Positions 2,221-19,651 of a DNA stretch of 32,429 nt are shown one piece after another. This DNA is from Candidatus Adlerbacteria bacterium RIFCSPHIGHO2_12_FULL_53_18 (GTDB lineage Bacteria > Patescibacteriota > Minisyncoccia > Phycocordibacterales > SBAW01). The position numbers and the translations under genes were made by a program. The notes beneath the pieces are model-generated. The model was not told the origin of the DNA. It ran no database searches and worked only from the letters and a program-made list of their open reading frames with translations. The stretch lies in assembly GCA_001775475.1 (NCBI GenBank), contig MEWW01000005.1, positions 3,850 to 36,278 of the forward strand, read 5' to 3'. Position 1 is the first letter of the stretch; the number at the start of each line of letters is the position of its first letter.

Positions 2221-2251
2221 TAATGAACGACTTCGTAAGTCGCACATTACT
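2219..2251. repeat. RAYT-associated palindromic repeat, left copy
   Basis: AGTAATG-aa-CGACTT-cgt-AAGTCG-ca-CATTACT; core GACTTCGTAAGTC. Confidence 0.85.
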
Positions 2252-2888
2252 CCAGGAGGAACGATTGTACACCTTCCAACTCGACATCTTTTAGATACGA
2301 GGCAAGTGCTTGTTCGTAGTTGCCGAAGACGTCTTTGAATAGGGTAGTGGTAATGACCGAAGGAAAATTCTTTTTGCCGCAGTAGTCGAGGTAGCTCGAC
2401 CAGCGATATTGTCTTAGGTGTGTAAGCGCGCGAGCGGCGCTTGCAATGCGCCGCTCGCGCCACGCCGCTGTTTCTTTAAGCATGTGGAGCGGGTTAAGGT
2501 GCAGGTAGTGCAAAATATGTAAAAAGTGCGCGTCTGAAGAAATGAGTACCCTTTTTGTTCTTCCTTGAAAGAGTGTGCCGCTTCGATGGTATTTCTCGTT
2601 GAAGTATTTTGCATACCCGATGTTTAACTTTCTGATGAATTTCGTAATGCCTCCATCTACTCGTTCGGAGAGCAAAAGGTGGTAATGGTTTTTCATCAGG
2701 CACCATCCGTGTATGTCTACTAATAATGAACGACTTCGTAAGTTGCTCATATTTGAACGTGATGTGTTTTGCGCCGCCTTTTCGTCATTAAATTCGAATA
2801 GGTCGTGTACAAAGCGCGCCCTATCCTGAGAGTCTTCAAAGATGGTGCGCTTGTCCACCCCGCGATTTAGCGCATGCCAGAGCTCCAT
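2247..2888 (-). CDS. REP-associated tyrosine transposase (Y1_Tnp/RAYT family)
   Basis: 'WHALNRGVDKRTIF', 'WCLMKNHYHLLLSE' (HxH motif), 'KYFNEKYHRSGTLFQGR', 'YLHLNPL', 'YRWSSYLDY' are characteristic of RAYT/transposase_17. Confidence 0.93.
   Translation of the reverse strand: MELWHALNRGVDKRTIFEDSQDRARFVHDLFEFNDEKAAQNTSRSNMSNLRSRSLLVDIHGWCLMKNHYHLLLSERVDGGITKFIRKLNIGYAKYFNEKYHRSGTLFQGRTKRVLISSDAHFLHILHYLHLNPLHMLKETAAWRERRIASAARALTHLRQYRWSSYLDYCGKKNFPSVITTTLFKDVFGNYEQALASYLKDVELEGVQSFLLE
2726..2750. repeat. RAYT-associated palindromic repeat, copy inside the RAYT coding sequence
   Basis: ATGAACGACTT-cgt-AAGTTGCTCAT; one mismatch and one G-T pair. Confidence 0.8.
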
Positions 2889-2899
2889 GCCTCTATTTT

Positions 2900-2930
2900 A
2901 GCATGAACGACTTCGTAAGTCGTTCATGCT
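2900..2930. repeat. RAYT-associated palindromic repeat, right copy (14-bp perfect stem)
   Basis: AGCATGAACGACTT-cgt-AAGTCGTTCATGCT. Confidence 0.9.
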
Positions 2931-16980: not shown

Positions 16981-18342
16981 ATGAGGGCTATGGGGCGATC
17001 ATTTCTGGTATTTGGTTTTACACTTGCCGCGATAGCGGCGAGTGCACTTTACGTGCCCGAAGCGCCTCAGGCGGAGGCCCAAGCGCTTACCGAAGAGGAT
17101 AAGGCGCGGCTGCGGGCCGAGTACGACCAGCTCCAACAAGAGATTGCGGAGTGGCAAAAGGTGTTGGACGAAACGAAGCAGAAGAAGAATACTCTCCAAG
17201 GCGATGTCACGGTACTCAACGCGCAGATCAAAAAAGCCGAGGCGGAAATCCGCCAGCGCACCGGCACCATCAACCGCCTCGCAGGCGAGATTAATGAAAA
17301 GGTTGAACATATCTCCGAGCTGGAGGAGCGGCTTGAAGCCGGCCGCACCTCGCTTGCACAGCTTCTCCGGGAGAAACACGAACAAGAGACAACGCCGCTT
17401 GCGGTGATGCTACTCTCTGCGTCCAACGTGTCGGACTTTTTTTCCACCGTTGACGCGATAGACGTCATCAACCGCGATCTGCAGGTGCACTTTAACGAGC
17501 TGCGCGGCGTAAAGCAGGAGACCGAAAAGGAGAAGGACGAGCTCGACCAGAAGAAAAATCAGGAGCTCGACGCCAAGTACGAAGTAGAGGTTAAAAAAGA
17601 TCAGGTTAAAAAAGACGAGGTCGAGAAGCAGAAACTCCTCGACGTCACTAAAAAAGACGAGGCCTCCTACGCGCAAATCTTGGCCGAGCGGCAGAAGCGC
17701 GCTGAGGCTATACGCACGGCTCTCTTCGAGCTTCGCGATGCGCAGGGCATTCCGTTTGCGACTGCGCTCGAGTATGCAAGCCAGGCTTCTGCGGCAACGG
17801 GCGTCAGGGCCGCGTTTATCCTCGGGATTTTGCGGCAGGAGTCTAACCTCGGCGTCAACGTTGGGCAGTGCTACTTGGTTAATGCCGACACCGGGGCCGG
17901 CAAAGGCAAAAACACGGGTACGCCCTTTAACAACGTGATGCATCCAACGCGCGACGTGCCGGTCTTTTTGGAGCTTGCAAAGCGGGTGGGTTTTAATGCG
18001 TACTCGACGCCGGTCTCGTGTCCGCAGTCTATCGGCTACGGCGGCGCTATGGGCCCCTCGCAATTTATCCCCTCAACCTGGGTGACCTATGAGGGGAGGA
18101 TTGCCTCGACAGTGGGAGCTGGAGCGGCCAACCCGTGGGACCCGAAACACGCCATCACCGCAACCGCGCTCTTTCTGAAAGATCTCGGCGCCGGAGCGGG
18201 GGGCTACAGTGCCGAGCGCGAGGCCGCCGGCCGCTACTACGCAGGGGGCAACTGGGCGACCCTGGGGCTCGGCTATGCAGGGAGCGTCCTTGCCTTTGCA
18301 CAGAAGTACCAGGAGGACATCGACTTTTTGAAGGACAACTGA
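16981..18342 (+). CDS. Exported coiled-coil protein with C-terminal lytic-transglycosylase domain
   Basis: Signal sequence; long E/K/Q coiled coil; 'RAAFILGILRQESNLGVNVGQCY', 'GGAMGPSQFIPSTW', 'NPWDPKHAITATALFLKDLGA'. Confidence 0.87.
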   Translation: MRAMGRSFLVFGFTLAAIAASALYVPEAPQAEAQALTEEDKARLRAEYDQLQQEIAEWQKVLDETKQKKNTLQGDVTVLNAQIKKAEAEIRQRTGTINRLAGEINEKVEHISELEERLEAGRTSLAQLLREKHEQETTPLAVMLLSASNVSDFFSTVDAIDVINRDLQVHFNELRGVKQETEKEKDELDQKKNQELDAKYEVEVKKDQVKKDEVEKQKLLDVTKKDEASYAQILAERQKRAEAIRTALFELRDAQGIPFATALEYASQASAATGVRAAFILGILRQESNLGVNVGQCYLVNADTGAGKGKNTGTPFNNVMHPTRDVPVFLELAKRVGFNAYSTPVSCPQSIGYGGAMGPSQFIPSTWVTYEGRIASTVGAGAANPWDPKHAITATALFLKDLGAGAGGYSAEREAAGRYYAGGNWATLGLGYAGSVLAFAQKYQEDIDFLKDN

Positions 18343-18346
18343 GAAG

Positions 18347-18414
18347 AGCTACGCAAAAGTCCTTCGTTCCGGGGAGATGAACGGCACCCCTTCGCGAAGG
18401 ACTTTTGCTTCGCT
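18347..18414. repeat. Structured repeat element copy A
   Basis: Stem GCAAAAGTCCTTCG (18353-18366)/CGAAGGACTTTTGC (18395-18408), inner GGGG-AGATGAACGGCA-CCCC. Confidence 0.9.
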
Positions 18415-18423
18415 AGAGTGGTA

Positions 18424-18452
18424 TTGCAAGTGCTAGATTTCTGGGTTATATT
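18424..18452 (+). promoter_or_regulatory. rpmE promoter, -10 7 nt upstream of the GTG start
   Basis: TTGCAA - 17 nt - TATATT - gaccagc - GTG. Confidence 0.65.
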
Positions 18453-18459
18453 GACCAGC

Positions 18460-18687
18460 GTGAAAACCGAAACCCACCCAACCTATTTTCCTAATGCAAA
18501 GGTCACCTGCGCCTGTGGCCAGACTTTTTCTGTGGGCTCAACTAAAGAGAACATCGAGGTGGAAATCTGCTCTAACTGCCACCCTTTCTACACGGGCAAC
18601 GATAAACTGATGGACACCGCCGGCCGGGTGGAGAAATTCAAGGCCCGCCGTGCTGCAGCCTCTACAAAAGCAAAGAAGTCGAAGTAA
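18460..18687 (+). CDS. rpmE: Large ribosomal subunit protein bL31 (Cys-containing form)
   Basis: '[46 protein letters not shown]'; GTG start. Confidence 0.93.
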
Positions 18688-18689
18688 GG

Positions 18690-18754
18690 GCTTCGCAAAA
18701 ACCTTCGCTCAGGGGAGATAAACGGCACCCCTTCGCGAAGGTTTTTGCTACGCT
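18690..18754. repeat. Structured repeat element copy B
   Basis: Stem GCAAAAACCTTCG (18695-18707)/CGAAGGTTTTTGC (18736-18748), inner GGGG-AGATAAACGGCA-CCCC. Confidence 0.9.
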
Positions 18755-18759
18755 ACAAT
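18754..18759 (+). promoter_or_regulatory. Candidate -10 box (TACAAT) 7 nt upstream of the prfA ATG
   Basis: TACAAT-tgagtat-ATG. Confidence 0.55.
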
Positions 18760-18766
18760 TGAGTAT

Positions 18767-19651
18767 ATGGATTTAAGTAAATACAAAAACAACCCTAAAA
18801 CCGCGTATCTCGCCGCGGCCCTTGAACATATCCAAAACGAGGCTGACAAGCTGGAGATGATTAAACAAATGGACGAGATTCTCGCTGGGGATGCGGTTGA
18901 AGAAGAGTTTCCAAATGAGGTGGTTATGGAGGTGCGCGCGGGTGTGGGCGGGGAGGAAGCGGCGCTTTTTGCCGAGGAGCTCGCGCACATGTACATGGCT
19001 TACGCCACCAGCCAGGGCTGGGGCTCGCGCATGCTTGCAGAGTCTAAGTCGGACCTTGGCGGCTACAAAGAGGCGAGCGTCGAGATAAAAGGCAAAGGCG
19101 TCTACAAGCGCTTGCGCTATGAGACCGGCGTGCATCGGGTGCAGCGCGTGCCGGCAACAGAGAAATCTGGCCGCATCCACACCTCAACCGCTTCGGTCGC
19201 GATACTGCCTATACGCAAAAAGCCGAAGGTGGAGATCAACCCCGGCGACATCGACATGGAGTTCTCACGTGCAGGCGGCGCGGGCGGTCAAAACGTCAAC
19301 AAGGTTGAGACCGCCGTGCGGCTTATACACCGCCCGACCGGCCTCGACGCGCGCTCGCAGAGCGAGCGCTCCCAGGCGCAAAACCGCGAACAGGCGATGG
19401 CCGTGCTTGTGGCTAAAGTGGAAGCGCTGGAGGAGGAGAAATCCAATGCCGCGCATGCAGCCGAGCGCAAAGACCAAATAGGCACCGCCGACCGCTCGGA
19501 GAAAATCCGCACCTACAACACGCTCCAAGACCGAGTGACCGACCACCGGGTTAAGGAGAGCTGGCACAACTTGCCCGCGATTTTCGCCGGCGGGATAGAC
19601 CCCATCCTCAATGCGCTTGCCCCGTTAGAAAGCAAACGATCCAATAATTGA
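18767..19651 (+). CDS. prfA: Peptide chain release factor 1 with reduced N-terminal domain
   Basis: GGQ motif '[20 protein letters not shown]'; '[24 protein letters not shown]' with the RF1-type PAT tripeptide. Confidence 0.92.

Follow-up and report, generated by a model that had tools for sequence, protein, structure and literature searches.

A dispersed palindromic element between and inside genes of a Candidatus Adlerbacteria-like genus

Two similar hairpins flank rpmE in the genome of Candidatus Adlerbacteria bacterium RIFCSPHIGHO2_12_FULL_53_18, and the question is whether they serve this gene or are copies of a mobile repeat. The original prediction, made on the window (the whole stretch of DNA analysed, 32,429 nucleotides), described two structured elements of about 65 nt around rpmE; both are present and share one architecture. 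It is likely that both represent a small palindromic element, non-autonomous and provisionally designated as APE-1, that belongs to a Ca. Adlerbacteria-like genus; it would be selfish, and its arms would be template-corrected.

The two hairpins around rpmE

The features of this region are as follows; the names of the genes around the hairpins were read from the sequence, and the start codon of rpmE was picked by eye.

18347..18414, + strand: copy A of the palindromic element, short-loop type, between the putative peptidoglycan hydrolase gene and rpmE (sequence, fold, covariance model)
18460..18687, + strand: rpmE (ribosomal protein L31), host context only (ORF, by-eye alignment with the relatives L012 and L013)
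18690..18754, + strand: copy B of the palindromic element, between rpmE and prfA (sequence, fold, covariance model)
18767..19651, + strand: prfA (peptide chain release factor 1), 3' of copy B, host context only (ORF, protein search for relatives)

The stop codon of the putative peptidoglycan hydrolase gene ends at 18342, ahead of copy A, and that of rpmE ends at 18687, followed by copy B and then by prfA from 18767. The closest named relatives by PrfA are a Patescibacteria MAG (77% protein identity) and Ca. Adlerbacteria GW2011_GWA1_54_10 (72%).

Copy A reads AGC-TAC-GCAAAAGTCCTTCGT-TCC-GGGG-AGATGAACGGCA-CCCC-TTC-GCGAAGGACTTTTGC-TTC-GCT, and copy B has the same layout minus one pair. In both, an internal loop (3/3) separates the outer stem of 14-15 bp from the apical stem GGGG/CCCC, which is closed by the loop AGATRAACGGCA of 12 nt; in copy B, the loop reads AGATAAACGGCA. 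At the stem positions where copy A has AAAAGTCC/GGACTTTT, AAAAACC/GGTTTTT is observed in copy B. When folded as single-stranded DNA, copies A and B show z = -4.7 and z = -6.0, respectively, against dinucleotide shuffles, with none of 200 shuffles equally stable. The covariance model R1, which was built from 33 long-loop copies, recovered copy A (18349-18412, 59.4 bits, E about 1e-12) and copy B (18690-18753, 53.3 bits, E about 1e-10). Because R1 contains no copies from this genome, their recovery is an independent test.

A dispersed family with covarying arms

The original prediction had proposed a search for further copies in this genome and its relatives, and such copies were found in both. 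The genome (540 kb, 18 contigs) includes eight copies with A and B counted, six of which were recognized by pattern search before R1 brought the number to eight. A looser loop pattern revealed related copies across the genus, and 78 genus copies (about 80) are now known from the 35 genomes examined, which are mostly draft assemblies with many contigs, some of them incomplete. Most relatives in the genus have 1-13 copies each, and some members have none. R1 matches were obtained in 27 of the 35 genomes at E<=0.05, a level at which the matches weaker than E 1e-4 are partly generic hairpins, and in 23 at E<=1e-4.

Copies of the element are dispersed and about 65-74 nt long, each with a conserved apical hairpin and arms of about 24 nt. 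The apical part GGRG-AGATRAAC...-CYCC is conserved among copies. When folded, the genus copies show variable arms, an internal loop or a paired spacer, a GGAG/CTCC stem and a loop starting with AGATRAAC, which continues as GGCA, RCGACCCCWA or GGGASCCCWA. Many intergenic copies are located directly 3' of a stop codon, and their orientation is mixed. No consistent target-site duplication was recognized by eye in the flanks, whose exact borders are provisional.

Outside the genus, three divergent copies were found in a genome from another family of the same order (G263), and a sample of 380 genomes of the phylum contained no copies except those of the genome studied here. The element is nearly genus-restricted, and weak relatives outside the genus may be missed because both large scans used stricter filters. 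The three copies of G263 (L198, L204, and L209) share the apical motif and the inner arm, and their long outer arms are locus-specific yet paired.

The arms were analyzed with the gapless alignment A4, which includes 33 copies and 19 arm pairs. Double changes are observed in all 19 arm pairs. Among the cells of the alignment, 83.5% are paired, compared with 64.8% for shuffled and at most 56% for slid partners, and the covariation score is 0.516 versus 0.179 for shuffles. Covariation, for which the original prediction had proposed a statistical test, is far above the shuffled and slid controls. Between copies of the genome studied here, the mean identity is 52% in the arms and 86% in the apical cores. 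Out to position 24, counted from the apical stem, the arms pair far better than shuffled partners do; at positions 25-30 the values are 2.96 versus 2.85 for shuffles. With this limit at about 24 nt, the ends of the element are defined, and palindromisation does not generally extend into the host flanks. The arms share the consensus GCWWCGCAAAAGTCCTT.../...GGACTTTTGCTTCGC, and the foot reads GCT/GCT with at most about 0.4 bit per position.

Copies inside protein genes

One third of the genus copies (26 of 78) lie within conserved genes, with the frame open on both sides. The hosts are tgt (7), an RlmI-like methyltransferase gene (4, all at the same site), mpg (3), mutY (3), and uvrC (2), and further mnmA, leuS, ileS, tsaD, pnp, dus, and the gene for an RseP-like M50 protease; the genome studied here has inserts in mpg, uvrC, and tgt. 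Pfam and NCBIfam confirmed the hosts, and the matches span the insert in Mpg, Tgt, MnmA, TsaD, Dus, Pnp, and RseP; for ileS and pnp, the in-gene status is based on family matches and frame reading. Several copies at the same site in different species may be one inherited insertion, and therefore the 26 in-gene copies do not represent 26 events. The inserts are 22-25 residues long. As read from the sequence, the frames of the loop are open in five of six cases, and a stop occurs in one sense frame only. As a control, prfA-region loci of other genomes, mostly of Patescibacteria, were examined (364 kb); they contain 33 strong inverted repeats, none of them in ORFs of at least 200 codons.

The in-gene copies are 22 in sense and 4 in antisense orientation (two-sided binomial about 5e-4; 9e-4 in a version with 21 of 25). 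Orientation was considered as a clue to the mechanism and dropped, since intergenic copies are mixed; for the same reason, the in-gene bias more likely reflects hydrophilic peptides encoded by the sense strand. A paired AAAAG/CTTTT replaces the internal loop in six loci (L088, L090, L093, L141, L160, and L184) and was seen only in in-gene copies.

Covariation is also strong inside coding sequence: 16 in-gene copies gave a score of 0.588 versus 0.202 shuffled, and in these copies the arms encode differing peptides in differing frames. Concerted change of the arms within coding sequence costs amino-acid changes at two places. The tgt copies of two species (G011 and G033), whose Tgt proteins are 76% identical, share an odd internal mismatch, CCCAC on the 5' side and GCAGG on the 3' side, which argues that they are one inherited insertion. 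The outer arms of the two copies are different on the 5' as well as the 3' side (GAGCAAAAAGAT/ACTTTTCTGCTC versus GAGGCGCAGGTT/ACCTGCGTGCTC), yet they pair in each copy.

APE-1 is dispersed, its arms are complementary inside coding sequence as well, and the corresponding sites of relatives lack it. The ortholog comparison revealed empty sites in tgt (G031, G002, G028, G009, and others), uvrC (G017, G009, G012, G002, and others), and mpg (G003, G012, and G027). The sites of A and B are empty in the nearest named relative (L012), because rpmE and prfA abut there and no hairpin precedes rpmE. In Ca. Adlerbacteria GWA1_54_10 (L013), the site of copy B is occupied by another palindrome, about 90 nt long and similar to that in uvrC of G023 (L126).

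Filled sites can also differ in orientation. At the tgt site, the inner arm sequence is common to G011, G033, and G001, and the loop of G001 is reverse-complemented. In mpg, the element of G024 has the opposite orientation to those of G011 and the genome studied here. These reversed loops may be due to loop flipping or to a separate insertion in the other orientation. In G025, G027, G010, G030, and G023, palindromes of other, unrelated families occupy the tgt and uvrC sites, and because of this occupation in further species the sites are regarded as permissive loops. These other palindromes are in frame (L089 and L124 in G025, L092 and L128 in G027, L126 in G023, L129 in G030, and L130 in G010), and in both G025 and G027 one such family is present in tgt as well as in uvrC.

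Possible origins and known palindromic repeats

The original prediction suggested a functional RNA or DNA structure. The possibility of a mobile repeat that it mentioned has held up. A protein-binding element that regulates rpmE finds no support, and a leader or attenuator specific to rpmE is rejected, since copies occur at a wide range of unrelated genes, both the A and the B site are empty in the nearest named relative, and the Rfam 15 covariance models gave no match at E<=1 in the window interval 17500-19500. In a more general form, a functional RNA or protein-binding element would have its structure selected at each site. This is quite improbable: the strong covariation, the near-invariant apical loop and the many intergenic copies just behind stop codons would fit it, but the gene contexts are unrelated, in-gene covariation is equally strong, some genus members live without any copy, and the missing Rfam match argues against a known RNA family. 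Template-directed correction from arm to arm is more plausible than selection for a hairpin RNA within a dozen unrelated genes. It is extremely improbable that A and B are ordinary intrinsic terminators of the hydrolase gene and rpmE. They are stable, GC-rich hairpins straight after stop codons, but a T-run is absent, the search for terminator-like matches on both hairpins found none, and related copies are situated well within coding sequences; the view that they are not plain terminators is thus upheld. An inverted target duplication, in which insertion is limited to the apical core and the host flank is copied to give the arms, could be read from the strong arm differences between copies, from the locus-specific outer arms of the three G263 copies, and from tgt, where in several species a host-like CCGGAG codon pair is mirrored in the 3' arm. 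This origin is very improbable, since the arms have a consensus, and as a general rule it is ruled out by the shuffled-level pairing past 24 nt.

Mobilisation by a transposase of the genus is another possibility, and the window contains two features that concern it.

2247..2888, - strand: RAYT-like Y1 transposase gene, candidate mobiliser only (ORF; PF01797 above cut-off, NF047646 below cut-off)
2900..2930, upstream of the RAYT-like gene: perfect 14-bp palindrome AGCATGAACGACTT-ACG-AAGTCGTTCATGCT (31 nt), which differs from the element

The palindrome at 2900-2930 has two copies in the genome, the second on another contig (C10). RAYTs act on single-stranded hairpins, and RAYT-type Y1 genes are present in 26 of the 35 genus genomes, including the one in the window. 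The hairpin might then be REP-like and moved by these transposases, and a weak association points in this direction, as the element is present in 20 of the 26 genomes with a Y1 gene versus three of nine without (p 0.038). This reading is unlikely, however: the association ignores phylogeny, and the element also occurs in three genomes in which no Y1 gene was detected (G017, G034, and G012). In the genus, 20 RAYT-region loci were examined, and no significant copy flanks the RAYT genes there (a single weak match has 17.5 bits and E 0.13); these loci carry other, shorter hairpins, and a GTAG or CGTC foot is not conserved among the element copies.

As a selfish palindromic element, APE-1 would spread by a transposition-like process and would survive in genes only where its peptide suits a permissive loop. 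Its arms would stay complementary through template-directed correction, either template switching during replication or conversion within the palindrome, rather than through site-by-site selection for RNA function. An inverted loop at one site in different species would fit the same strand switching. Selection acting on the hairpin itself could also make the arms change in concert, for example when mobility depends on the structure and copies are replaced quickly. A further proposal, offered tentatively and somewhat doubtful, is that these copies belong to a class of mobile coding hairpins new to the Candidate Phyla Radiation, in which the core spreads, the arms are rewritten by templated strand switching, and the loops flip. 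If true, such palindromes persist and diversify in essential genes across the species of one genus, and other palindrome families share the same permissive sites.

The Rickettsia palindromic elements (RPE; Ogata et al. 2000, 2002) are described, in PMC2229807, PMC10969869, and PMC6649704, as several families of short palindromic repeats of about 105-150 bp, fused in frame inside conserved proteins and spreading by an unknown mechanism. APE-1 is likewise a short dispersed palindrome, found in frame within conserved genes and between genes. It differs in the host phylum, in its length of about 65-74 nt, and in its covarying arms, as Rickettsia palindromes are reported to lose repeat identity over time (PMC6649704). 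When nine host proteins were compared with NCBIfam at E<=1, no RPE-domain model was among the matches (for one protein, among the best 25 of 43); this comparison was made at the protein level. The best explanation is that the element acts like RPE but is unrelated by sequence according to the NCBIfam comparison, is shorter, and has arms changing in concert.

To our knowledge, translated selfish DNA is known mainly from Rickettsia and Wolbachia, and an archaeal case from Methanocaldococcus is also cited. An independent case in the ultra-small genomes of Patescibacteria suggests recurrence in reduced genomes. No report of palindromic elements in Patescibacteria/CPR was found in the literature searched, subscription papers and outside preprints lying beyond its coverage. 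The approximately 80 copies, with replicated tgt, uvrC, mpg, and RlmI-like sites in empty, filled, and flipped states, constitute a natural experiment on the origin of coding palindromes and on arm complementarity, both open for the Rickettsia elements. For annotators, inserts of 22-25 residues in such proteins can be mobile DNA rather than functional loops.

A precedent for template-directed correction is found in nematomorph mitochondria, where, according to PMC6649704, protein genes contain perfect inverted repeats up to 284 bp, the arms evolve in concert, and template switching was proposed. APE-1 resembles them in having in-gene inverted repeats with arms changing in concert, but its conserved apical core is dispersed over the genome, and the passages of PMC6649704 considered here describe no such conserved-core family for nematomorphs. 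REP sequences associated with RAYT are palindromes tagged by GTAG and CGTC (PMC3733652). The likeness lies in short hairpins dispersed in bacterial genomes and in the RAYT-like genes of the genus; APE-1 is, however, longer, has no terminal tetranucleotide tag, is found in genes in one third of its copies, and is not located beside RAYT-like genes. Like MITEs, it is short, non-coding, and non-autonomous and has inverted repeats; a consistent target-site duplication was not seen by eye. Its terminal arms vary and its centre is conserved, the reverse of a terminal repeat recognised by a transposase.

Two minor observations concern the form of single copies. In L238, L241, and L244, the apical part is enlarged by extra sequence, clearly a second small hairpin in L238 and L241, and a nested insertion is possible. 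In L189 (G027, contig C24), two copies are located about 80 nt apart in opposite orientation, like a REP doublet.
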